Positions 18,332 to 63,924 of a stretch of DNA of 64,000 nucleotides are shown here, in pieces. Each line of letters starts with the position of its first letter. Positions within the stretch are counted from its first letter, which is position 1. Source of the stretch: a virus; IMG/VR virus record IMGVR_UViG_3300046488_000208, positions 1 to 64,000 of that record, one strand, 5' to 3'. The position numbers were made by a program, and so were the translations under genes. The notes under the pieces were generated by a model, which saw only the letters and a list, made by a program, of their open reading frames with translations, was not told where the DNA came from and did not search any database.

Positions 18332-18360
18332 TGTAACATTTTCAGAAATTTTACGTATAA
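18332..18360 (+). promoter_or_regulatory. ECF-type promoter of the bL12 gene
   Basis: TGTAAC, 16-nt spacer, CGTATAA; 33 nt from CGT to the ATG at 18387. Starts 9 nt after the end of the RNase P RNA. Confidence 0.75.
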
Positions 18361-18386: not shown

Positions 18387-18764
18387 ATGGCAACAAATCC
18401 AAAATTATTCGCAATTGCTGACACATTGACAAAATTGACGGTGTTAGAAGCAAAACAACTCATTGATATTCTTGAAAATGATTATGGCATCAAGGGTCAG
18501 AGCATTGTAACTCCGATTGGTGTACCAACACCCGAAGTTGCAGTAAAAGAACAGACTGAATTTGATGTTTATCTGAAAGAAATTGGTGGACAAAAATTAC
18601 ATGTCATCAAAAAAGTTAATGAATGCTTGAGATTGGGACTCAAAGAATCAAAAGAACTGGTCGATAAATGTCCGGGTCTTCTGACAGGAAAAGTATCAAA
18701 AACCGATGCATTGATACTTAAAACCGAACTGGAAAATGTGGGTGCAGTAGTTGAAATAAAATAA
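18387..18764 (+). CDS. rplL: Ribosomal protein bL12 (L7/L12) homologue (125 aa)
   Basis: Full-length copy of the ribosomal stalk protein that recruits translation factors. N-terminal dimerisation helices (ADTLTKLTVLEAKQLIDIL, about 11-29) are followed by a short hinge with Pro and Val, then the C-terminal domain from about residue 56: EFDVYLKEIGGQKLHVIKKV, LGLKESKELVDKCPG and ENVGAVVEIK. LGLKE-x-KELVD is the diagnostic factor-binding face. Length matches the bacterial family. Some uncultivated phages are known to carry bL12. It probably enters host ribosomes and changes factor recruitment (inference). It has its own ECF-type promoter. Confidence 0.93.
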   Translation: MATNPKLFAIADTLTKLTVLEAKQLIDILENDYGIKGQSIVTPIGVPTPEVAVKEQTEFDVYLKEIGGQKLHVIKKVNECLRLGLKESKELVDKCPGLLTGKVSKTDALILKTELENVGAVVEIK

Positions 18765-20605: not shown

Positions 20606-20636
20606 TGTAACATTTTTATTAGTATTTACGTATAAC
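20606..20636 (+). promoter_or_regulatory. ECF-type promoter with short leader
   Basis: TGTAAC, 17-nt spacer, CGTATAA, only 12 nt from CGT to the ATG at 20641; most copies have 32-36 nt, so this transcript may be nearly leaderless. Confidence 0.65.
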
Positions 20637-20640
20637 TATT

Positions 20641-20925
20641 ATGAAAAAGTTACCGACAATAGAAATCACCGAACTATTCATGGTCAAAGCAGACTGGAAT
20701 AGAACCTTTATTGGTCAGATAATCAGAAAAACTGATGAAGACGGTCTGTCAATTAATCTTGGCAACGTCACAGTAGACGAAGGAAAAATCTGGAGCAAAG
20801 CTGAAACCCAAGAAGAACTTGGAAAATATCTTGATGATATTTGTACATTAAAACTCGACTGTAACCTTCACGGTAACGGTGGTGTTACTTCTATTCTTGC
20901 TGAGACTCTGTTCAATCACAATTAG
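20641..20925 (+). CDS. Unknown protein (94 aa), TAG stop in frame with the next gene
   Basis: IEITELFMVKADWNRTFIGQIIRK and DGLSINLGNVTVDEGKIWS suggest a beta-rich N-terminal half. The stop TAG (20923-20925) is followed directly by the ATG of the next frame in phase, so amber suppression would yield one 184-residue protein. No family recognised. Confidence 0.6.
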   Translation: MKKLPTIEITELFMVKADWNRTFIGQIIRKTDEDGLSINLGNVTVDEGKIWSKAETQEELGKYLDDICTLKLDCNLHGNGGVTSILAETLFNHN

Positions 20926-21692: not shown

Positions 21693-21764
21693 GGGCATAT
21701 AGTTCAGAGGTAGAACATTGGTCTCTAAAACCAATTGCCACGGGTTCGAGTCCCGTTATGCCCT
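21693..21764 (+). tRNA. Amber-suppressor tRNA (anticodon CTA)
   Basis: Acceptor GGGCATA / TATGCCC, D-stem GTTC / GAAC, anticodon stem TTGGT / ACCAA with loop CTCTAAA, T-arm ACGGG-TTCGAGT-CCCGT; a perfect 72-nt class I cloverleaf. The CUA anticodon reads UAG. Leu(TAG) is excluded by the register and by the absence of a class II arm. The GGTCTCxAAAACC core looks like a tRNA-Trp in which CCA changed to CTA, but the discriminator is T rather than G, so the amino acid carried is unknown. Confidence 0.85.
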
Positions 21765-21773
21765 CAAAAATTT

Positions 21774-28470: not shown

Positions 28471-28500
28471 TGTAACATTATTCGATTATTATTCGTATAA
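28471..28500 (+). promoter_or_regulatory. ECF-type promoter of the exported-protein genes
   Basis: TGTAAC, 17-nt spacer, CGTATAA; 27 nt from CGT to the ATG at 28521. Confidence 0.68.
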
Positions 28501-28520: not shown

Positions 28521-28646
28521 ATGCCAATGACAGACAAAATTTACTTAACAATTCTCATAGTATTATTAATCGTAGTTGTCATTGGCGATGTACGTGTCGC
28601 CAACACAATAGATAAAGTAAAAAAGAAACTAAAACTCAAAAAATGA
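28521..28646 (+). CDS. Small membrane protein (41 aa)
   Basis: MPMTDKIYLTILIVLLIVVV, then a short outer part and a basic tail (KVKKKLKLKK); single N-terminal span. The TGA overlaps the ATG of the following gene by four bases. Confidence 0.6.
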   Translation: MPMTDKIYLTILIVLLIVVVIGDVRVANTIDKVKKKLKLKK

Positions 28647-29290
28647 AAAGATTATTAATCCTTGCGTTATTGCTTTGCTCGTTTGCAGCAAATGCACAGA
28701 ATTTTCAAGTACTAACCGATGCCAAAATCAATTTTATTACATTTGAACTCTACAAGCCACTTAAACACGGAACTGTCTATTACTTCACTGACTTCAAGGT
28801 AGACCATGATGGCATTACTGAATCCTACTCAGAAATATCGGGATACGTAAACATTACAAAAACATTCTCTGCCACTCTACAATATAACGCAGGACTCAAC
28901 AAAACATTCAGAATATTTCCTGTTTATCTTGGTGGAGTGTCTAAAGCATTTACAATCGGAAAATCATTTAATTTATCCTTTGATGTTACATACCGCCATC
29001 AAAACTTTCTTTATCTTGGCGATAAAGAAATGCGTAATGGGTATCAGATTACAACCACATTTTCACAAGATAGAGATAAAACACAAGTAAGTGGTTATTG
29101 CGACTTTTGGAATAACAAATATTTTATTTTTGAACCCCAAGGTTGGTATAAACTGACAAAGCGAATTTATCTCGGATTAGAATGGAGGGCATCAAATTAC
29201 GATGAAGTACTTAACTACGATGCTGATGGTGGGTTCATTGGTCATTACGCAAACTACGTAATGCTTGGAATGAAATTAAATTTAGAATAA
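28643..29290 (+). CDS. DUF5020-like outer-membrane beta-barrel protein (215 aa)
   Basis: Signal peptide MKRLLILALLLCSFAANAQ with a Bacteroidetes-type cleavage site at A-Q. The mature part alternates aromatic and polar residues in strands (TVYYFTDFKVD, YLGLEWRASNYDE) and ends on an aromatic/hydrophobic strand, as in Tsx-like and DUF5020 barrels. A phage-encoded outer-membrane protein could mask or replace a receptor (inference). Confidence 0.75.
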   Translation: MKRLLILALLLCSFAANAQNFQVLTDAKINFITFELYKPLKHGTVYYFTDFKVDHDGITESYSEISGYVNITKTFSATLQYNAGLNKTFRIFPVYLGGVSKAFTIGKSFNLSFDVTYRHQNFLYLGDKEMRNGYQITTTFSQDRDKTQVSGYCDFWNNKYFIFEPQGWYKLTKRIYLGLEWRASNYDEVLNYDADGGFIGHYANYVMLGMKLNLE

Positions 29291-32040: not shown

Positions 32041-32069
32041 TGTAACATTCTCCCGTAATTTTCGTATAA
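32041..32069 (+). promoter_or_regulatory. ECF-type promoter of the nucleotidyltransferase gene
   Basis: TGTAAC, 16-nt spacer, CGTATAA; 34 nt from CGT to the ATG at 32097. Confidence 0.75.
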
Positions 32070-39575: not shown

Positions 39576-39735
39576 TAAATTCAAAGAACAAGAAACAATC
39601 AGATGGCTGTCTAACACCACGACCTTTGGCTGCTACAATTTATACGTGTGCCCCACATGGTTACTCGGTCACTGTCATTTCTCTGACTGTTTCAATTTCG
39701 TTATACGTAGAACTACTTTAAAATGTTACAAAAAA

Positions 39736-42014: not shown

Positions 42015-42132
42015 AGTAGCGAAATTTTTTTGTGAATGTTTCTCAAAATGAATGGAAATATTTACAAAAAAATGTAGCGGATTTACAAAAAAGCATTATT
42101 TTTGCATAAATCAAAACTATTTAATAGTAAGA

Positions 42133-43335
42133 ATGAAGACAATATTTCGGACATATCAATTTGAATTAATGCCAAACCAAGAGCAGAAAACGCTGTTGGA
42201 TAAGCATTTTGGATGTATCCGATTTGTCTATAATCATTTTCTAAATGAGCGTAAAGAGCAATACCAAGTAGACAAGAAGTCTGATAATTACTACACACAG
42301 GCAGCAACACTAACAGAATTAAAGAAAAAAGATGAAACTATTTGGCTTAAAGAAGTTAATAGTCAATCTTTACAATTTGCTTTAAGATGTTTGGATACTG
42401 CTTATGTGAACTTCTTTCGTGGTAACGCTAAATTTCCAAGATTTAAGTCAAGAAAAAAGAAGAATACGTTTACGGTCCCACAATTCGCCAAATTGGAAGA
42501 TGGTAGATTTTACGCACCAAAGTTTAAAGAAGGAATAAAAGTTAATGTTCATCGTGAAGTAAAAGGCGAAATAGGAAAATGCACTTTAAGCAAAACACCA
42601 ACAGGTAAATATTTTGTGTCTATTCTTTCCGAAGAACAGTATCAACCAAAAGAAAAGACTGGTGCTGTATGTGGAATTGACTTAGGATTAAAAGACTTTG
42701 CAATAACATCTGATGGAGTTAAATTCAAGAATAACAAATATACAAAGCGATATGAAAGAAAGTTAGCGAAAGCACAAAAACATCTTTCTCGTAAAACAAA
42801 AGGTAGTACTTCGTTTGAAAAACAAAGACGAAAAACAGCCTTAATTCACGAGAAGATAACCAACTCACGAATGGATAACTTACACAAGGTATCTCACAAA
42901 TTGGTAACTGATTATGATATAATCGCATTAGAAGATTTAAATGTGAAGGGAATGGTTAAAAACCATAAACTTGCAAAGCACATATCAGATGCCAGTTGGG
43001 GGACTTTTGTAAGATTGTTGGAATATAAAGCAGATTGGAATGACAAACAGATTGTTAAAATCAATCGATGGTATCCATCAAGTAAAACCTGTTGTGAGTG
43101 TGGTTGGATAAATCAAGAATTAAATCTTTCAATAAGAGAATGGACTTGTAAAAACGGACACGTATTAGACCGTGATTTAAACGCTGCAAAAAACATTCTT
43201 AAAGAAGGATTGAAAATATTAAACTCGGCAGGAACTGTCGAAAACACGGGTGGAGACTCAAATAAGACTTCTGTAAAGAAGCACAAGTCCGTGAAACCCG
43301 AAGCCCATCCCATCGCCTTTGGCGTGGGTGGGTAG
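42133..43335 (+). CDS. tnpB: TnpB RNA-guided nuclease of the IS605 element (400 aa)
   Basis: RuvC residues are present: Asp in CGIDLGLKDFAI, Glu in IIALEDLNVKGM and Asp in HVLDRDLNAAKN. A zinc finger CCECG...CKNGH sits between the last two blocks, with His replacing the usual final Cys. The N-terminus MKTIFRTYQFELMPNQEQ is typical, which fixes the start at 42133. The right-end hairpin overlaps the 3' end of the gene, where the guide (omega) RNA would be produced. Confidence 0.93.
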   Translation: MKTIFRTYQFELMPNQEQKTLLDKHFGCIRFVYNHFLNERKEQYQVDKKSDNYYTQAATLTELKKKDETIWLKEVNSQSLQFALRCLDTAYVNFFRGNAKFPRFKSRKKKNTFTVPQFAKLEDGRFYAPKFKEGIKVNVHREVKGEIGKCTLSKTPTGKYFVSILSEEQYQPKEKTGAVCGIDLGLKDFAITSDGVKFKNNKYTKRYERKLAKAQKHLSRKTKGSTSFEKQRRKTALIHEKITNSRMDNLHKVSHKLVTDYDIIALEDLNVKGMVKNHKLAKHISDASWGTFVRLLEYKADWNDKQIVKINRWYPSSKTCCECGWINQELNLSIREWTCKNGHVLDRDLNAAKNILKEGLKILNSAGTVENTGGDSNKTSVKKHKSVKPEAHPIAFGVGG

Positions 43336-55534: not shown

Positions 55535-56140
55535 ATGTATATGATTGGAATAAAAGAAGCAGCAGAATTACTTGGAATTACTCCCAAAACATTAAGATTA
55601 TGGGAGAAAAACGGTAAAATAATGAGTCATAGGACTGAAGGTCAACATAGAAGATATGTAGTTTCAGAACTTATCGGTAGTCGTGGAGACAAACTATTAA
55701 CAATTGCTTATGCCAGAGTATCAAGTTATGACCAGAAAGATGATTTAAAACGACAAGAATTGGTATTGGAAAGTTATTGTGCGAGTAAAGGATTTGAATT
55801 TGAATTAATTTCTGATTTAGGTTCTGGAATGAACTACAAGAAAAAAGGACTTGTAAGATTAATAAAATTAATTTGCAGTAATCAAATTGATAGATTGGTA
55901 ATCACACATAAAGACAGATTACTAAGATTTGGAAGTGAGTTAATTTTTATGCTTTGCGAAATCTTTGCTGTTGAAGTTTGTATAATTAATAGGAGTGAAG
56001 ATAGCACCTTTGAAGAAGATTTAGCCAACGATGTTTTGGAAATTATAACTGTCTTCAGTGCAAGATTATATGGAAGTCGAAGCCATAAAAATAAACAGAT
56101 AATACAACAATTAAAACAGGTAGCCAAAGATTTGAAATGA
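55535..56140 (+). CDS. tnpA: IS607 transposase: MerR-type HTH plus serine recombinase (201 aa)
   Basis: Residues 5-50 form a MerR-like HTH (GIKEAAELLGITPKTLRLWE). The recombinase domain starts AYARVSSYDQKDDLKRQ with the catalytic serine in RVSS, followed by DLGSGMNYKKKGL and VITHKDRLLRFG, conserved in small IS607 recombinases. Length of about 200 aa is normal. Its TGA overlaps the tnpB start. Confidence 0.95.
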   Translation: MYMIGIKEAAELLGITPKTLRLWEKNGKIMSHRTEGQHRRYVVSELIGSRGDKLLTIAYARVSSYDQKDDLKRQELVLESYCASKGFEFELISDLGSGMNYKKKGLVRLIKLICSNQIDRLVITHKDRLLRFGSELIFMLCEIFAVEVCIINRSEDSTFEEDLANDVLEIITVFSARLYGSRSHKNKQIIQQLKQVAKDLK

Positions 56141-57312
56141 AGTCAATTAAGGTAAGATTAGAACTAAACAATAAGCAGACTACACTTGCTAATAAACACG
56201 CAGGAGTGGCAAGATATGCTTATAATTGGGGAAAATCTGTCTGTGATTTGGCAATACAAAATAAGGAGCACAGACCAACAGCAATTGATTTACATAAGAA
56301 ATTTGTTAAAGAAGAAAAAACTATTAAGTCTTGGTTGTATGAAGTATCCAAGTGCAGTCCACAACAAGGATTAAGAAATCTTGATGAAGCATATAAAAGA
56401 ATATTTAAAGTCAAAGGAAGTAAATATCCAAAATTCAAAAAGAAAGGTCAACATGATAGATTTTACTTGGAAGGTGCTATTAAAATAGATAGTAATAAAA
56501 TTAAAGTGCCTAAGTTTGGTTGGTTGAGATGTTCTGAAATATTACCAGAATGTGAAGTCAAAAATGTTGTTATAAGTAAAACTGCTAATCAATGGTTTAT
56601 TGCTTTTAAAATACCATTTGAACCACAGATTACTAATAAGATGAATGATATTGTCGGTGTTGATTTAGGTATTAAAACACTTGCAGTATTGTCAGATGGT
56701 AAAGTATTTGAAGCAGTTAAACCATATAAACGAAACAAACGGAAATTAAAAATATTACAAAGAAGATTAAGTAAAAAACAGAAAGGTAGTCAAAATCGTA
56801 AAAAAGCAGTATTAAAAGTAGCAAAACTACATTATAGAATTGCTAATATTCGTAAAGATACATTACATAAATTGACAACATATTTAAGTAAAAACCACAC
56901 TGAAATATGTATTGAAGATTTGAATGTAAATGGTATGAGTAAAAATCACAAATTAGCATCAGCCATATTGGATGGTGGATTTTCAGAGTTCAGAAGACAA
57001 TTAGAATATAAATGTCAATGGTACGGCAGTACAGTGACAGTTGTTGATAGATTTTATCCAAGTTCAAAGACTTGTAGTGGATGCGGTAATGTTAAAAAAG
57101 AATTGAAACTATCTGAACGAACCTATGTTTGTGAGAATTGTGGATTATTAATTGACAGAGATTTAAATGCTGCAATTAATTTAAAAAATAAGTCGGCAAG
57201 TTATGCCGAATCAGCCTGTGGAGTGCCCAAACAATTAAACTCTTTTGAGTTTGATGGTGCTGTGAATCAGGAAGTAAACAACAATGTTCAACATTGTGTA
57301 AGTTTTATATAA
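56137..57312 (+). CDS. tnpB: TnpB RNA-guided nuclease of the IS607 element (391 aa)
   Basis: RuvC blocks VGVDLGIKTLAVLSDG, EICIEDLNVNGMSKN and LLIDRDLNAAINL are present with their Asp, Glu and Asp. The zinc finger is intact: CSGCG...CENCG. It is only distantly similar to the IS605 TnpB at 42133. Translationally coupled to the recombinase. The guide RNA would come from its 3' end. Confidence 0.95.
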   Translation: MKSIKVRLELNNKQTTLANKHAGVARYAYNWGKSVCDLAIQNKEHRPTAIDLHKKFVKEEKTIKSWLYEVSKCSPQQGLRNLDEAYKRIFKVKGSKYPKFKKKGQHDRFYLEGAIKIDSNKIKVPKFGWLRCSEILPECEVKNVVISKTANQWFIAFKIPFEPQITNKMNDIVGVDLGIKTLAVLSDGKVFEAVKPYKRNKRKLKILQRRLSKKQKGSQNRKKAVLKVAKLHYRIANIRKDTLHKLTTYLSKNHTEICIEDLNVNGMSKNHKLASAILDGGFSEFRRQLEYKCQWYGSTVTVVDRFYPSSKTCSGCGNVKKELKLSERTYVCENCGLLIDRDLNAAINLKNKSASYAESACGVPKQLNSFEFDGAVNQEVNNNVQHCVSFI

Positions 57313-57993: not shown

Positions 57994-58515
57994 TTAGATG
58001 ACTACGTAAGTAGTTTTGCGGAATTTCAGACGTTTAACGTTTTCGATTGCTATTTCCCTGTGATAGATAGCTGTTTCAGTTCCCTGATATTTTGCGGGGT
58101 CTGACTTAGGAAAATACTGTTTAATTATTGCGGACGGTATGAAGTTCAGCGCACTGTCAAAGTGTAACGCTCTGAAAGTCTGCTGTGCCTTGTAGGTAAG
58201 GTAAAACGTTCCTTTGCCCACGTGCATACTTAACGCTGTACTGATTCGTTTACCTGCACCCTTCCACAAAGGTTGACTAACAAAATCTTTTTCTTTATTT
58301 TCACGTTCCAGTTGATTATTAACGCTATTTTCGTAAACGTACCCAACCATACCGCCAACGTTTGCAATTTTCACTACATTGCCAAATTTGGCTTTTCCTT
58401 CGGGGGTTAATTTCGGTTCAGTTACATACTGCAAACTAACTGGCTGTGCGCCAAAGTTCCAAGTTCTTAGCATTTCAATTAGTTCCTGCTTACTGATGTT
58501 TTTCTGATTTTTCAT
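57994..58515 (-). CDS. Unknown protein (173 aa)
   Basis: MKNQKNISKQELIEMLRTWN, FGNVVKIANVGGMVGYVYEN, a KGAGKRISTALSMHVGKGTF segment and a C-terminal VKRLKFRKTTYVVI. Mixed alpha/beta, basic. Transcribed divergently from the sigma-factor gene from its own ECF-type promoter. No family recognised. Confidence 0.62.
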   Translation of the reverse strand: MKNQKNISKQELIEMLRTWNFGAQPVSLQYVTEPKLTPEGKAKFGNVVKIANVGGMVGYVYENSVNNQLERENKEKDFVSQPLWKGAGKRISTALSMHVGKGTFYLTYKAQQTFRALHFDSALNFIPSAIIKQYFPKSDPAKYQGTETAIYHREIAIENVKRLKFRKTTYVVI

Positions 58516-58564: not shown

Positions 58565-58593
58565 TTATACGTACAATGTTGCAAAATGTTTCG
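58565..58593 (-). promoter_or_regulatory. ECF-type promoter on the minus strand
   Basis: Read on minus: CGAAAC, 16-nt spacer, CGTATAA, then GAATACAGACAGACA, the same leader as the plus promoter at 59373; 56 nt to the ATG at 58515. Confidence 0.65.
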
Positions 58594-58665
58594 ATATACA
58601 TAAAAATGTTTTGATACACTGCTTATTTAGAATGAATATAAATTGCAAAGATTTATTGCTTTTAC

Positions 58666-58695
58666 TGTAACATTTTTTGTTATTTGCAGTTTAAC
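58666..58695 (+). promoter_or_regulatory. Degenerate ECF-type promoter upstream of the sigma factor
   Basis: TGTAACATT is perfect, but the -10 region reads CAGTTTAAC. A TATATTTG box (58700) follows and could be used by the host housekeeping sigma factor, giving early expression plus autoregulation. Confidence 0.5.
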
Positions 58696-58745
58696 TACTA
58701 TATTTGACAATCGAAACTTTTAGTGTTTAACCAATATTTAAAGCT

Positions 58746-59315
58746 ATGAATGAAGTAACCAAAGCACAAACAGAAATCAGTGCAATTGATTTTAATAAGG
58801 TTTACAAGGAACAAAAGCCACGTATTGAATTATACCTACGGACGAAAACAAGTGATGAGGAATTAAGGAATGAAGTTATAAGCCAAACATTTGTTAAGGT
58901 ATATACAGGTTTGGAGCATGGCAAATTTAATTCGAGTAAATCAAGTATTTCAACATGGGTGCATACCATTGCAAGAAATACGTTAATTGATGAAATTCGC
59001 AAAAACAAAAACAACTTAGTACATATTTCAGATTACACCAACGAAAACGGTGACGAAATTTTAGAATTTAAAGATAACGGCAGGGGTACTGATGCAGTTG
59101 TTGAAAACAATGAATTGGCAGACAGTATAATGACAGCTTTCAACAAGGTTAAACCAACCTATAAAGAAATAGCAATACAATATTTTATGTATCAGAAAGA
59201 ATATAGTGAAATTGCAGACATGTTGTCAATACCTTTGAACACTGTTAAGGTTGCAATAATGAGAGCAAGAGAAGTATTGCAGGGTCAATTAAAACGTGAA
59301 TATGCAACTATGTAA
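58746..59315 (+). CDS. ECF-type RNA polymerase sigma factor (189 aa)
   Basis: Region 2: ELRNEVISQTFVKVYTGLEH and SSISTWVHTIARNTLIDEIR (about 39-84), including the -10-recognising helix. Region 4: KPTYKEIAIQYFMYQKEYSE then IADMLSIPLNTVKVAIMRAR (about 133-175), a clear HTH. Region 3 is absent, so it is an ECF (group 4) factor. It redirects host RNA polymerase; the AAC/CGT-containing promoters of the window are the obvious targets. No anti-sigma gene is visible nearby. Confidence 0.92.
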   Translation: MNEVTKAQTEISAIDFNKVYKEQKPRIELYLRTKTSDEELRNEVISQTFVKVYTGLEHGKFNSSKSSISTWVHTIARNTLIDEIRKNKNNLVHISDYTNENGDEILEFKDNGRGTDAVVENNELADSIMTAFNKVKPTYKEIAIQYFMYQKEYSEIADMLSIPLNTVKVAIMRAREVLQGQLKREYATM

Positions 59316-59372
59316 TGTACAAAATAATATTGTGGGCAATGTACAAATAATCTGAAAATATATTGCCTGCAA

Positions 59373-59401
59373 TGCAACAAATTCCTGGAAATTACGTATA
59401 A
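59373..59401 (+). promoter_or_regulatory. ECF-type promoter
   Basis: TGCAAC, 16-nt spacer, CGTATAA followed by GAATACAGACAGACA; 54 nt from CGT to the ATG at 59449. Confidence 0.65.
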
Positions 59402-59448
59402 GAATACAGACAGACAAAAATACAGTATTAACCAAAACACAATGTACC

Positions 59449-59724
59449 ATGACGACAAAAACTAAAACACCCGCAAGACCTTTGTACGAAATTGCAAGGG
59501 AAATCAGACAGAACTGGAAAAAATCAATCAGTGGCACTGACTTAAATTATGCAGCAAAACCATACCTTGAGGCAATGGAAAGTCTTGACAAAATTAGTGA
59601 CAGGTATATAATGGACAGCGCAAGTTCAATAGTTGCTTACTTCTTAGGTAATGCTTCAAGTTGGAGAGGACCGAAAGCAAAGGAAATAAAAGCTGAATTA
59701 AACCAAATGCTGAAAGCAAAATAA
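59449..59724 (+). CDS. Unknown helical protein (91 aa)
   Basis: MTTKTKTPARPLYEIAREIR, then helices around AAKPYLEAMESLDKISDRYI and AKEIKAELNQMLKAK. Directly downstream of the sigma-factor gene with its own promoter. No family recognised. Confidence 0.6.
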   Translation: MTTKTKTPARPLYEIAREIRQNWKKSISGTDLNYAAKPYLEAMESLDKISDRYIMDSASSIVAYFLGNASSWRGPKAKEIKAELNQMLKAK

Positions 59725-59761
59725 AGTTTGCTAAATGTACAGATTATTTCCTCGTCAATAG

Positions 59762-59775
59762 TATTTATAGACGAG
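59762..59775 (+). promoter_or_regulatory. GTATTTAT motif, variant
   Basis: GTATTTATAGACGA lies near the start of the HNH gene at 59791, 15 nt away; less regular than other copies. Confidence 0.35.
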
Positions 59776-59790
59776 GAAATTTTATTTAAT

Positions 59791-60207
59791 ATGGCATATA
59801 GTAAACAATGGCTTAAACTATCTGATGAAGAAAGGAAGCTAAAAAGAATAGGATATAGAAAAAAGTATGAACAAAAACATCCTGAACGAGTAAAAGAAAG
59901 CGATAAACGTTATAGAATTAAACATAGGGAACGACTAAAAATTATTAAAAGTACTTGGCAAAAAAGCAAAGGTCGAAAAAATAAACTTCGGGCAATTGAA
60001 TATCTTGGTGGTCATTGTACAGACTGTAAGAATGAATTTCCACCTTATGTATATGACTTTCATCATTTAGACCCAAATATAAAAGATAATAATATTGCAA
60101 GACTTATGGGCAGAAAATGGGAAGGCATTGTACATGAATTAGATAAATGTGTTTTGCTTTGTGCTAATTGTCATAGAATACGTGAAAATAAAGAAGAATT
60201 TTTGTAA
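59791..60207 (+). CDS. HNH endonuclease (138 aa)
   Basis: A basic, Lys/Arg-rich N-terminal half (ERKLKRIGYRKKYEQKHPER) precedes an HNH core: GGHCTDCKNEFPPYVYDFHH, then DPNIKDNN and CVLLCANCHRIRE (about 75-130). ATG 59791 matches the natural MAYSKQWLKL start. Free-standing homing endonuclease in an otherwise regular series of small genes. Confidence 0.88.
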   Translation: MAYSKQWLKLSDEERKLKRIGYRKKYEQKHPERVKESDKRYRIKHRERLKIIKSTWQKSKGRKNKLRAIEYLGGHCTDCKNEFPPYVYDFHHLDPNIKDNNIARLMGRKWEGIVHELDKCVLLCANCHRIRENKEEFL

Positions 60208-60232
60208 CATTTATAGTCTATTGTACGTATAA
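60203..60232 (+). promoter_or_regulatory. ECF-type promoter
   Basis: TGTAAC, 17-nt spacer, CGTATAA; 33 nt from CGT to the ATG at 60259; leader AACTGTAACCAAAACA. The -35 part overlaps the HNH stop codon. Confidence 0.78.
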
Positions 60233-60258
60233 CAACTGTAACCAAAACATAGAGACAA

Positions 60259-60594
60259 ATGAAAATCTTAACACAGGAAATTCTCGCAGCTTTTAAGAAG
60301 CAAGGCAAGACAGGCAGAAAGTCTGCAAAGGATATTCGTATTGTACTGAAACTCTTCAACCCTATTGGTGCAGGAACATGGTACATATATGAGAAGGAAG
60401 ATGAAGATATTTATTGGGCATTTGTCAACCTTGGTGACATAGATTGTGCAGAATGTGGCACAGTATCAATGAATGAATTGATGACTTTGCGTTTACCGCT
60501 TGGATTGCATATTGAAAGAGACAAATTTTTTGAGCCTCTGAGCATGTCACTTGAGGAAGTAATGAACAAAGTCAAAGCAGGACAGCACGTCTAA
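60259..60594 (+). CDS. Unknown protein (111 aa)
   Basis: MKILTQEILAAFKKQGKTGR, then strands DIRIVLKLFNPIGAGTWYIY and a Cys pair in IDCAECGTVS. Resembles the small DUF2958-like proteins of mobile elements in its early PxGAxTWY pattern (from memory). Single gene with its own promoter and terminator. Confidence 0.65.
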   Translation: MKILTQEILAAFKKQGKTGRKSAKDIRIVLKLFNPIGAGTWYIYEKEDEDIYWAFVNLGDIDCAECGTVSMNELMTLRLPLGLHIERDKFFEPLSMSLEEVMNKVKAGQHV

Positions 60595-60604
60595 AAATAA
60601 CTCG

Positions 60605-60632
60605 AAAACCCTGTAACATTACAGGGTTTTTT
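60605..60632 (+). terminator. Terminator with embedded promoter -35 element
   Basis: AAACCCTGTAA / TTACAGGGTTT with T-tract. The TGTAACATT of the next promoter forms the stem and loop. Confidence 0.85.
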
Positions 60633-60640
60633 ACGTATAA
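60612..60640 (+). promoter_or_regulatory. ECF-type promoter overlapping a terminator
   Basis: TGTAAC, 16-nt spacer, CGTATAA; 33 nt from CGT to the ATG at 60667. Confidence 0.78.
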
Positions 60641-60666
60641 CTACTGTAACCAAAACACAAAGACAA

Positions 60667-61035
60667 ATGAAAGAATTATTATTAAAAGTTGACTATACAG
60701 ACAGCACAAGAAAATTCTGGTGTGACTCTTCAATAAAGAATATGACAGTCGAATTTGACCCCGATAAACAAACCATACATGAACTTATTAAGGAAGTTTG
60801 TGATGAACGGGACGGAATGAAATTGTCATATAAGGGCAAACCACAGGGCAATGTTTATCGTGACGTAAAAGATGCTAATGGTAAGGTAACAGACACGAAA
60901 ATTGTTGGTTACATGTACAGAGGCAAAATTGAAATATTTGACAGGAATATGACTAAACCTGTAACGGCATTGTTCGATGTTTGGGTAACAATAAAATTTG
61001 TTGAGAAATTCGAATTTGAAGTACTCGATGTGTAA
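60667..61035 (+). CDS. Unknown protein (122 aa)
   Basis: MKELLLKVDYTDSTRKFWCD and ATALFDVWVTIKFVEKFEFE-type strands, with a basic centre (KLSYKGKPQGNVYRDVKDAN). Predicted beta-rich. No family recognised. Confidence 0.6.
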   Translation: MKELLLKVDYTDSTRKFWCDSSIKNMTVEFDPDKQTIHELIKEVCDERDGMKLSYKGKPQGNVYRDVKDANGKVTDTKIVGYMYRGKIEIFDRNMTKPVTALFDVWVTIKFVEKFEFEVLDV

Positions 61036-61060
61036 CATTTTCCAGGGAATGTACGTATAA
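61031..61060 (+). promoter_or_regulatory. ECF-type promoter
   Basis: TGTAAC overlaps the preceding TAA stop; 17-nt spacer, CGTATAA; 35 nt from CGT to the ATG at 61089. Confidence 0.76.
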
Positions 61061-61088
61061 CAACTGTAACTAATATACATATAAAGCA

Positions 61089-61280
61089 ATGTCAATAACT
61101 AAAACACTTACAGCACATAATTTAGTCATTCAGTTTGATTGTTTCAAACATGAAGACAATCTTGAAACAACACAGGAAATAATTGACAGTATCAATGAGA
61201 TATTGTTACAGCAACTTCCGGATGCAAACCCGCAGATATTTACAACGGGTATTGACAAAGCAGATGTTTTCGAGAAATAA
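61089..61280 (+). CDS. Unknown small protein (63 aa)
   Basis: MSITKTLTAHNLVIQFDCFK followed by an acidic helix TQEIIDSINEILLQQLP. No family recognised. Confidence 0.58.
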   Translation: MSITKTLTAHNLVIQFDCFKHEDNLETTQEIIDSINEILLQQLPDANPQIFTTGIDKADVFEK

Positions 61281-61295
61281 TATACAGACAAATAT

Positions 61296-61325
61296 TGTAA
61301 CATTTATAGGTGAATGTACGTATAA
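61296..61325 (+). promoter_or_regulatory. ECF-type promoter
   Basis: TGTAAC, 17-nt spacer, CGTATAA; 33 nt from CGT to the ATG at 61352. Confidence 0.78.
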
Positions 61326-61351
61326 CAATTGTAACCAATACAGATAAAGAA

Positions 61352-61903
61352 ATGACAGAACCACATGTTGAATTGAAATCAGTACACTTCGGATATAGCC
61401 GTGAATGGGGTTCTAATGGCAGGTTTGATGCAGATGTATGGATTAATGGCGTGAAGTGCATGAAAGCCATAGATGAAGGCAATGGCGGTGAAATAGACTA
61501 TGAACATTTCATATACAAAAACCCACAGGCAAAACAAGTCAAAGCAAACATCAAATTGCTTGAAGCCTACATTAAAACCATGCCAAAACAGTCTCTTGGT
61601 GGCATACATGAAGGTGGAAAACTTGTAATGTTCACAATAGATATGGACCTGTACATCAATAACTTGCTTGACAAAATGTCAACCGAGAAGTTTCAGAAGA
61701 AATTACTGAAACACTTTGAAAAAGCAATATGTTTTGGTGTACCTAATGGCAAGCAATACAGGTCGGTTTATTGGACAGGCAAGACACTTGCACAGATTGA
61801 CAAAATAAATCTGCAACGTACCTACGACAAGACAAAAGCAGGACTTGGCAAAGGTGAAACAATATTGAACACGAACTTACAAGCACTTGGCATAAACTTA
61901 TAA
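61352..61903 (+). CDS. Unknown protein (183 aa)
   Basis: MTEPHVELKSVHFGYSREWG, IDEGNGGEIDYEHFIYKNPQ and a long helical middle; C-terminal AGLGKGETILNTNLQALGIN. ATG 61352 has the constant distance from the promoter; an upstream in-frame start would lie inside the promoter. No family recognised. Confidence 0.6.
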   Translation: MTEPHVELKSVHFGYSREWGSNGRFDADVWINGVKCMKAIDEGNGGEIDYEHFIYKNPQAKQVKANIKLLEAYIKTMPKQSLGGIHEGGKLVMFTIDMDLYINNLLDKMSTEKFQKKLLKHFEKAICFGVPNGKQYRSVYWTGKTLAQIDKINLQRTYDKTKAGLGKGETILNTNLQALGINL

Positions 61904-61948
61904 TTGTTTTTCATAATTCTTTTTTTTATAATTCATTTGTTGCTATCG

Positions 61949-61984
61949 AAACCCCGAAATATTCATATATCTTCGGGGTTTTTT
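61949..61984 (+). terminator. Rho-independent terminator
   Basis: AACCCCGAA / TTCGGGGTT with 13-nt loop and T-tract. Confidence 0.87.
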
Positions 61985-62007
61985 ATTGCAATAAATCCTG
62001 GAAATAC

Positions 62008-62037
62008 TGAAACATTCATAGTCTATTGTACGTATAA
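62008..62037 (+). promoter_or_regulatory. ECF-type promoter (TGAAAC variant)
   Basis: TGAAAC, 17-nt spacer, CGTATAA; 34 nt from CGT to the ATG at 62065. Confidence 0.72.
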
Positions 62038-62064
62038 CAATTGTAACCAAAACACAATAAAGCT

Positions 62065-62193
62065 ATGCAAACCACAGAACCCATGAGAATTACATTTGAG
62101 CCAAGGTATTATGAACTATTGCCCATAAAAGACGGCAAAGAGAAAAGAAGAGACAGAAGAGCAAAACAGCGTAAACACAATAAAAAGAAATAA
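62065..62193 (+). CDS. Small highly basic protein (42 aa)
   Basis: MQTTEPMRITFEPRYYELLP, then KDGKEKRRDRRAKQRKHNKK to the stop. Flanked on both sides by ECF-type promoters at the standard distance, which supports expression. Probably binds nucleic acid or an acidic host protein. Confidence 0.62.
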   Translation: MQTTEPMRITFEPRYYELLPIKDGKEKRRDRRAKQRKHNKKK

Positions 62194-62197
62194 TTAT

Positions 62198-62227
62198 TGA
62201 AACATTTATAACTGAATGTACGTATAA
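62198..62227 (+). promoter_or_regulatory. ECF-type promoter (TGAAAC variant)
   Basis: TGAAAC, 17-nt spacer, CGTATAA; 32 nt from CGT to the ATG at 62253. Confidence 0.73.
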
Positions 62228-62252
62228 CAATTGTAACCAAAACTCAAAAGCA

Positions 62253-62852
62253 ATGTTAAAAAATAAATCAGAAATCACAGTAAGAACACAAGGTATCAAA
62301 GGTGGCAAAGCCAGATTTGAAAATAAAGGTTGTGTAACTCTTTGTATCACCGACAGAGGACAGAAAATGTCTGACCTGGTAATTGATGCAGACAGTTTCA
62401 GTGGTTCAGGTGCATCATATCAGAGAAGGGAAAAAACCCTTATAAACATCGACTTCGAAAACACACCTATTTTTCATGGTACTATCGAACAGCTTGTTGT
62501 TAAACTCCGGGGTGCTAAAACAGAATTCGAGCAAACAAAAAAATTCAAATCAATAGGACTTGTTCTTGGCAATCTTTATATGGGTGGCGAAGGTGCATAT
62601 AAAGCAAAGAATCTCAAAGCAGATACCCGTGAAGAACTACTTATTAAAGCAACGGATATGTTATCCGATGGTAGTCTTGATGGTGGTATGGGTTTTGAAT
62701 CTTTAATTGGAGCATTACTTGAGATAACCACTGTTACTTCATTCATTGTCAACGACAAAACATTTGAAAATGAAGAAACTGAAACAGTATTCTTAGGTGA
62801 ATTAACACTTGAACAACAGCAATTTCTTGAAGAAACTGGAATGTACGTGTAA
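62253..62852 (+). CDS. Unknown protein (199 aa)
   Basis: MLKNKSEITVRTQGIKGGKA, then LVIDADSFSGSGASYQRREK, glycine-rich YMGGEGAYKAKNLK, and an acidic C-terminus. Predicted single alpha/beta domain, possibly followed by a helical tail. No family recognised. Confidence 0.6.
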   Translation: MLKNKSEITVRTQGIKGGKARFENKGCVTLCITDRGQKMSDLVIDADSFSGSGASYQRREKTLINIDFENTPIFHGTIEQLVVKLRGAKTEFEQTKKFKSIGLVLGNLYMGGEGAYKAKNLKADTREELLIKATDMLSDGSLDGGMGFESLIGALLEITTVTSFIVNDKTFENEETETVFLGELTLEQQQFLEETGMYV

Positions 62853-62877
62853 CCTTCACCCGGCAATGTACGTATAA
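62848..62877 (+). promoter_or_regulatory. ECF-type promoter without a recognised gene
   Basis: TGTAAC at the stop codon of the preceding gene, 17-nt spacer, CGTATAA. Downstream 62900-63009 holds only a 15-codon frame (MLLFGYKCKKRPREV, 62980), so it may drive a short RNA ending at the 63010 terminator. Confidence 0.65.
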
Positions 62878-63009
62878 CATTCGAAACTAAAATATACTAT
62901 CGATGAAGACACGATAAAGACAATAAAAAATCCTGGAACGAATATACAGGCAGGATGACAAAATAAAAATATAATCTATGCTTTTGTTTGGTTACAAATG
63001 CAAAAAAAG

Positions 63010-63043
63010 ACCCCGTGAAGTGTAACAATTTCCGGGGTTTTTT
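63010..63043 (+). terminator. Terminator with embedded promoter -35 element
   Basis: ACCCCG / CGGGGT stem with T-tract; TGTAAC of the next promoter lies in its loop. Confidence 0.82.
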
Positions 63044-63050
63044 CGTATAA
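63021..63050 (+). promoter_or_regulatory. ECF-type promoter overlapping a terminator
   Basis: TGTAAC, 17-nt spacer, CGTATAA; 36 nt from CGT to the ATG at 63080. Confidence 0.77.
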
Positions 63051-63079
63051 CAATTGTAACCAATTAATAAAAAGAAATC

Positions 63080-63307
63080 ATGGGAATACTTAAAATTTCA
63101 GCAAAATGTTCGGACCTCTGTTGGACTAAATATACCGATAAAAATGGTAAGGAAACTGAAACCAATGGCTATGTACCTGAAGGAATTGGTATCGGTGACG
63201 GTGGTGGTGACTATATTGATATTGATATTGACATGAAAACCGGACAGATTCTCAACTGGAAACCCGTAAGTGATGCACAGGTAATTGAAGCACAAAAAAA
63301 AGTATAA
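63080..63307 (+). CDS. Unknown small protein (75 aa)
   Basis: MGILKISAKCSDLCWTKYTD, then a glycine/aspartate-rich GIGIGDGGGDYIDIDIDMKT and a final helix. Two bases before the next ATG. No family recognised. Confidence 0.6.
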   Translation: MGILKISAKCSDLCWTKYTDKNGKETETNGYVPEGIGIGDGGGDYIDIDIDMKTGQILNWKPVSDAQVIEAQKKV

Positions 63308-63309
63308 TC

Positions 63310-63537
63310 ATGAAAAAAGAAATTAAATATCATACAGACCCGACAGGTCATTGTGAAGTACTTGCAGGAAGAATAGTAATTGCAAAAGCATACGTTGGAC
63401 AAAACGGCTATTCAATAAGAATTTTACAAGGCATGGACAGAGAAGCAACAATGAAAAAAATTAGAGAAGATTGCCCGGAATTCTTGACAACAAATGATAT
63501 TCCTGAGAACTATTATCCTAAATTGTTTTCAAAATAA
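63310..63537 (+). CDS. Unknown small protein (75 aa)
   Basis: MKKEIKYHTDPTGHCEVLAG, strands RIVIAKAYVGQNGYSIRILQ and a C-terminal helix. Shares the promoter at 63021 with the preceding gene. No family recognised. Confidence 0.58.
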   Translation: MKKEIKYHTDPTGHCEVLAGRIVIAKAYVGQNGYSIRILQGMDREATMKKIREDCPEFLTTNDIPENYYPKLFSK

Positions 63538-63539
63538 TT

Positions 63540-63568
63540 TGTAACATTTACAAGGATTTTTCGTATAA
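63540..63568 (+). promoter_or_regulatory. ECF-type promoter
   Basis: TGTAAC, 16-nt spacer, CGTATAA; 33 nt from CGT to the ATG at 63595. Confidence 0.78.
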
Positions 63569-63594: not shown

Positions 63595-63924
63595 ATGACA
63601 AGAAAAGAATTTAAAGAATTGGTAAGCGTTCACAAATACGGAAGTAAACGCAATCCTAATGGTATTACAGCAATCTTCTTCGATTGGAAGACCAATGATG
63701 AAGGTAATGGCTTTAAGTATTGCGTATTCGCACGCAATTGCAATGCTAAGACAGATGAACTACTGAAAATGTTACAGGACTTCATTGAGCAAAAAATTGA
63801 AGATGTCCCTTGGTATGTACAATTGATTATGGCAATGATTGACAAACAGAGATTCAAAGTACCTTTGCAATCTTCGGGACTGAACACAATGAGAAAAGTT
63901 GAACCACTAATACAGAAAGTATAA
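63595..63924 (+). CDS. Unknown protein (109 aa)
   Basis: MTRKEFKELVSVHKYGSKRN, ITAIFFDWKTNDEGNGFKYC, then a helical LLKMLQDFIEQKIEDVPWYV. Stop and next start overlap. No family recognised. Confidence 0.6.
   Translation: MTRKEFKELVSVHKYGSKRNPNGITAIFFDWKTNDEGNGFKYCVFARNCNAKTDELLKMLQDFIEQKIEDVPWYVQLIMAMIDKQRFKVPLQSSGLNTMRKVEPLIQKV

Follow-up and report, generated by a model that had tools for sequence, protein, structure and literature searches.

The sigma gene sigA and the sites around it

The window analysed here, positions 1 to 64,000 of the IMG/VR virus record IMGVR_UViG_3300046488_000208, is part of a contig of 65,284 bases. Near its right end lies sigA (58746..59315, plus strand, 189 amino acids), a gene for a sigma factor of the extracytoplasmic function (ECF) type, at the head of an array of recurring promoter-like sites. 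A second record of 83 kb (G001) represents the same phage, with 99.99% identity, and adds ~22 kb on the left. The sigA product matches Pfam Sigma70_r2 (residues 20-88) and Sigma70_r4_2 (127-176) above cut-off and no other sigma regions, is assigned to phrog_1740, and has SigW as its best PDB match (5wuq, E 2.5e-12). In its predicted model the domains are good and the inter-domain packing is loose (predicted template modelling score, pTM, 0.43), and the top Foldseek matches are ECF sigmas. These results support the assignment of sigA as a two-domain ECF (group 4) sigma factor, in agreement with a preliminary description of this DNA made from its letters alone. A profile scan of the ten proteins around sigA found no known anti-sigma domain.

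The same description had listed fifteen copies of the motif TG[TAC]AAC-N16/17-CGTATAA before single genes. Fourteen proved exact in pattern and coordinate; the fifteenth, at 58565 on the minus strand, has N17 and CGTATAA, but its -35 box is CGAAAC, a form that the motif does not cover. The set is also larger than described, as sites at 39701 (-), 64196, 64860 and 65181 had not been listed, the last three lying beyond the window end. Over the whole contig the strict motif occurs 18 times, 17 of them on the plus strand. The two boxes were never found at any spacing from 8 to 30 other than 16/17 in the contig, no copy arose in 60 second-order Markov genomes, and a reversed control pattern matched once in the contig. 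CGTATAA alone is found 21 times in the contig against 6.9 expected, and in an unprimed 8-mer count of the 58-65 kb region CGTATAAC and TGTAACCA showed the strongest over-representation. The enrichment before gene starts, which the preliminary description proposed to examine, was confirmed, with 13 of the 18 strict sites at 5-50 nucleotides (nt) upstream of the ATG of an open reading frame (ORF), against 1.2 expected under a joint shift of all sites. With AAC in the -35 box, CGT in the -10 box and a spacer of 16-17, these predicted promoters are bipartite in the manner of the ECF sigma class.

The predicted ECF promoters of the array lie on the plus strand. The first (59373..59401) precedes gene 59449-59724 (phrog_13953), the first array gene, and is followed by sites at 60203..60232 (before 60259-60594, DUF2958), 60612..60640 (before 60667-61035), 61031..61060 (before 61089-61280), 61296..61325 (before 61352-61903), 62008..62037 (TGAAAC, before a short ORF starting at 62065), 62198..62227 (TGAAAC, before 62253-62852), 62848..62877 (with no clear ORF near downstream), 63021..63050 (before 63080-63307) and 63540..63568 (before 63595-63924). 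Four predicted promoters are scattered farther left on the same strand: 18332..18360 before gene 18387-18764; 20606..20635, 5 nt from the ATG of gene 20641-20925 and possibly leaderless; 28471..28500 upstream of 28643-29290; and 32041..32069 before a gene starting at ~32103 (phrog_24943, DNA polymerase). The unlisted site of the window is at 39701..39730 on the minus strand.

The statement that CGT lies 32-36 nt before the ATG holds for most array sites, where the end of CGTATAA is 25-29 nt from the ATG. It fails at 28471 and 62848 and at 20606, 64860 and 65181, where the -10 box is only 3-6 nt from the ATG; this leaderless-like layout was also seen at single sites in six related contigs (G002, G005, G008, G010, G013 and G016). 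Similarly, the conserved leader AACTGTAACCAAAACA, or a variant of it, is found behind most sites in the 60-64 kb array and is absent after the four scattered sites.

Upstream of sigA, the degenerate copy of the motif that had been described is indeed present (TGTAAC-N16-AGTTTAA, 58666..58694, plus strand), with two mismatches in the -10 box. It overlaps a better predicted promoter of the form TTTG-N19-TATATTTG (58676..58706, plus strand), which is a form of the Bacteroidota housekeeping promoter. Such housekeeping-type promoters elsewhere in the contig lie 3-60 nt from an ORF start in 8 of 19 cases, against 1.2 by shift, and in nine test sequences TTG...TAnnTTTG was counted 39 times at spacings 19-20 together against roughly 10 per spacing, with spacing 22 also high. 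Two relatives, G010 and G002, carry TG[TA]AAC-N16-CGTTAAA at the matching place before their sigma gene, beside a TAnnTTTG box. It is possible that the degenerate site provides weak autoregulation, and a natural reading of this region would be that the host sigma starts sigA early, with weak positive feedback.

On the other side of this region, the CGAAAC-N17-CGTATAA site (58565..58594, minus strand) is a predicted ECF promoter for the divergent gene 57994-58515, and a strict divergent site is found at the same place in the 299 kb contig G010. The divergent gene (minus strand) shares 83% DNA identity with its counterpart in G010 (L157:1105-1623), whereas the two sigmas are only 48% identical, so a recent exchange of this gene is possible.

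Sigma genes and arrays in related phages

A motif scan of viral contigs gave at least 119 stretches. Among the first 40 contigs, the motif occurs in 37, many of which have 10-52 copies, with reversed-pattern controls near 0, and a sigma region 2 match was found in 18. Arrays start 0.6-2.6 kb downstream of the sigma gene (7.4 kb in G003) and run in the same direction. Within 10 kb of the sigma gene in symmetric 20 kb loci, six phages (G002, G005, G010, G012, G019 and G037) have 83 same-strand sites downstream and 0 upstream. Across phages the end of CGTATAA is mostly about 16-30 nt from the ATG, with a mode of 25-28 in most.

The array-head sigmas of the relatives are only 28-48% identical to sigA; in a tree they form one clade (94/89), apart from the second phage sigma, the crAss-like and Lak sigmas and host ECFs. 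In eight phages the first or second gene after the sigma belongs to the 91-residue family phrog_13953, to which no function is assigned; the window copy shares 43-59% identity with the other seven. Other array families include DUF2958, GP88, DUF932 and one L7/L12-like protein. A comparison of the window with five relatives showed no conservation of the array DNA itself (a single 609-base match, outside the array), and the promoters would therefore have been kept or remade independently.

A search by the sigma alone brought in two new contigs of ~365 kb each, G041 and G042. In G041, TAAC-N16-CGTA ranks first in an unbiased spaced 4-mer count (17 against 0.35 expected), and the -10 box is CGTATA[CT]. 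The standard motif was absent from G042 on a first scan. The unbiased spaced 4-mer count in this contig gave TGTAACCT paired with CGTTA, again 16 bases apart. Of 18 such sites, 16 fall within 160-174.4 kb, next to the sigma gene at 175.4 kb; a related site (CGCAAC) lies 73 nt upstream of that gene. The other sigA phages searched contain 0-2 of these TGTAACCT...CGTTA sites each. The sigmas of G037 and G042 are basal in the array-head clade. As G042 has its own array with a shifted -10 box, and its basal, divergent sigma accompanies the most divergent -10 box, sigma and promoter specificity appear to covary. Farther out, no site was found in the 1.48 Mb of five phages that carry more distant sigmas (crAss-like cr55_1, Lak-B2, BS162P1, Dulem virus 42 and a 642 kb phage), and a genome-contig search with a 4-row sigma alignment matched only distant cellular ECFs. 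As a separate observation, a region of G042 (L175, C1:165365-185883) repeats the palindrome CCAGTACTGG ~24 times over 20 kb, in many cases directly upstream of genes, and words resembling TTAATTAA and GTACATTGTAC are also frequent there.

The predicted regulon and its alternatives

We consider it highly probable that the phage ECF sigma factor SigA drives its own promoter array as a clade-wide, co-inherited regulon. The preliminary description had paired factor and promoters by inference, and this pairing is now strengthened by the conserved synteny, the sigma clade that predicts arrays, the out-of-sample test and the shift of the -10 box with a basal sigma. The ECF identity of the factor, the motif, its spacing and its position before genes can be read directly from the DNA, as can the synteny, the clade and the -10 shift. 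From these we infer core binding, transcription, timing and the host. In the proposed mechanism, sigA would be made early by host polymerase from the TTTG-N19-TATATTTG promoter, and its product would bind host core RNA polymerase and direct it to the TGTAAC-N16/17-CGTATAA promoters. The targets, mostly single-gene units in the array behind sigA plus the few scattered sites, would together form a middle-type, host-takeover or accessory regulon, and factor and promoters would be passed on and evolve jointly throughout a clade of large Bacteroidota-type phages. As distant giant relatives share it, the arrangement probably serves these viruses as a general switch of gene expression.

Several points weigh against this reading. 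The first 40 contigs were chosen by the motif itself. The ECF -35 box is widely shared, so the motif alone cannot name the factor. Four motif-rich contigs (G009, G030, G033 and G035) have no detected sigma; they are fragments, or could use another factor. Some phages have two sigmas of the array-head clade, which makes the assignment of sigma to sites ambiguous. In addition, the window contig is partial and gave no terminase or Gp23 capsid match. Of 14 contigs, 9 have a T4-type major capsid gene and 8 a terminase gene; neither was found in the window contig, G001, G002, G003 and G012, so that the placement of these five rests on sigma and arrays.

The array could instead be mainly a recombination device, in which promoter/terminator cassettes shuffle small genes, much as in the stem-loop cassettes of T4 discussed below, and regulation comes second. 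This possibility is compatible with a sigma regulon. In its favour, the units are mostly single genes and the gene content of the arrays varies between phages. It also draws on the superposition of some promoters on hairpins. At 60612 (hairpin at about 60604-60631, -15.5 kcal/mol, z -6.3), 63021 (-16.9 kcal/mol, z -4.4), 64196 and 64860, the promoter sits on a hairpin and T-run resembling an intrinsic terminator of the preceding gene; the -35 box falls within the loop or next to it, the spacer is made up of the T-run, and the -10 box follows immediately. The four hairpins fold at -15.2 to -17.6 kcal/mol with z of -4.4 to -6.3, and they may terminate the upstream gene. Under a strict stem criterion pooled over 17 contigs, a hairpin is superposed at 51 of 392 sites, compared with a mean of 19 and a maximum of 28 in 200 spacer-swap trials; a looser per-contig stem score mostly gave no clear signal. 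However, the first array gene is conserved among the phages, as are several more, and the boxes track sigma specificity; we regard recombination as the main role of the array as improbable.

A host ECF sigma might also read the promoters, with the phage sigma serving another purpose. The motif is of general ECF type, and TGAAAC-type sites occur in G035, where no sigma was found, and in G013, where an RpoD-like gene stands with a different ECF. Against this, the arrays begin directly behind the phage sigma gene and the -10 box changes along with the phage sigma in G042. In 118 Bacteroidota genomes (about 400 Mb) we counted 17 sites in total, at most four in any one, and nine further genomes have at most 3 each. 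None of the 118 has an array. Among the genomes scanned the motif is therefore no common signal, and we rejected it as a host-wide one; reading by a host factor is very unlikely. With respect to G013 (L220-L226, 141 kb), its 29 sites are mostly of the TGAAAC type and may be read by a different factor. Finally, short conserved intergenic repeats before genes serve as operators in some phages, and some of the present sites lie on terminator-like hairpins, but two boxes with AAC and CGT at a fixed spacing of 16-17, in one orientation, about 25-28 nt from the ATG and in an array linked to a sigma gene make stoperator-like operators for a phage repressor or other phage factor scarcely credible.

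A second sigma, known systems and implications

Several large contigs carry a second, different sigma gene (sigB) with no motif sites around it. No clear motif emerged when words were searched de novo near the sigB genes. Such a search was productive in the structural gene regions alone, where the large relatives share the word AGTATTTATA before genes. In the window, AGTATTTAT[AT] was counted 12 times (8760, 16467, 20131, 22372 and 23503 on the plus strand, 36409 on the minus strand, and others), nine of them 3-60 nt upstream of an ORF start, where 1.0 would be expected, and it also precedes structural genes in G005, G037 and G041. It is possible that AGTATTTAT[AT] is a late promoter; it is only a plausible guess that the second sigma reads such a late class. 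Other features of the contig include 19 tRNA genes, one of which (21693..21765, plus strand) has the anticodon CUA and was called tRNA-Pyl. A changed genetic code through this tRNA is unsupported, as 9 of 89 ORFs stop at TAG and the coding length is hardly altered; because TAG still serves as a stop, it is perhaps a suppressor tRNA. Two transposase-type genes (phrog_506) lie at 42052-43335 and 56137-57312 on the plus strand.

Bacillus subtilis SigW promoters have the form TGAAAC-N16-CGTA, and SigW is the closest solved sigma to sigA. SigW, however, is cellular and under a membrane anti-sigma, a partner not recognised among the ten proteins around sigA. Among phages, phiEco32 and 7-11 encode ECF-type sigmas with their own middle and late promoters, used after an early host-sigma phase (PMC4331800, PMC7881722), so phage ECF regulons as a kind are not new, although the preliminary description had held them to be hardly described. 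As in these phages, a phage-encoded ECF sigma is predicted here to redirect host polymerase after an early phase. Promoters of the phiEco32 type rely on an extended -10 and lack a recognizable -35 (PMC5333181), of the TAATGTATA type (PMC4331800), whereas those of the window have two strict boxes with a strictly spaced -35 TG[TAC]AAC, and their copies are far more numerous, in single-gene arrays at a conserved place behind the sigma. The overlap of some promoters with terminator-like hairpins is a further feature of the present system.

The Promoter Early Stem-Loops (PeSLs) of T4 carry host-type early promoters. As cited in PMC4503421 (Arbiol 2010; Comeau 2014), they are composite units of promoter and stem-loop between small accessory genes in T4-like phages. 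The joining of a promoter with a stem-loop between genes is a shared feature, here at a minority of sites only; in contrast to PeSLs, the promoter is here of ECF type rather than sigma-70, and the hairpin overlaps it. T4 also opens its middle promoter class on host polymerase through a phage factor, MotA/AsiA (PMC2988021), but it retains and remodels the host sigma-70, whereas here a dedicated ECF sigma would act. Other sigma types, but no such regulon, are covered by a review on jumbo phages (PMC7824862), and our literature search on ECF sigmas of jumbo or crAss-like phages, with most subscription papers outside its reach, found no matching system.

We lean, with some reserve, toward a broader view in which an ECF sigma took the role of T4 MotA/AsiA in a clade of large Bacteroidota-type phages whose larger members mostly carry a T4-type capsid gene. 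It would act on arrays with as many as ~50 single-gene promoters, a part of them fused to terminators, sigma and -10 box would coevolve (CGTATAA, CGTATA[CT], CGTTA), and a late AGTATTTATA class served by the second sigma would complete a three-step programme. From a biological perspective, these results offer a transcription programme, defined by sequence, for large phages that metagenomes alone have revealed and in which gene control is almost unstudied. The matched sigma/promoter pairs with shifted -10 boxes form a natural series for studying the evolution of ECF specificity and for orthogonal parts. Finally, the simple rule of finding the sigma and reading its array flags likely middle or takeover genes among the hundreds of unnamed genes of these phages.

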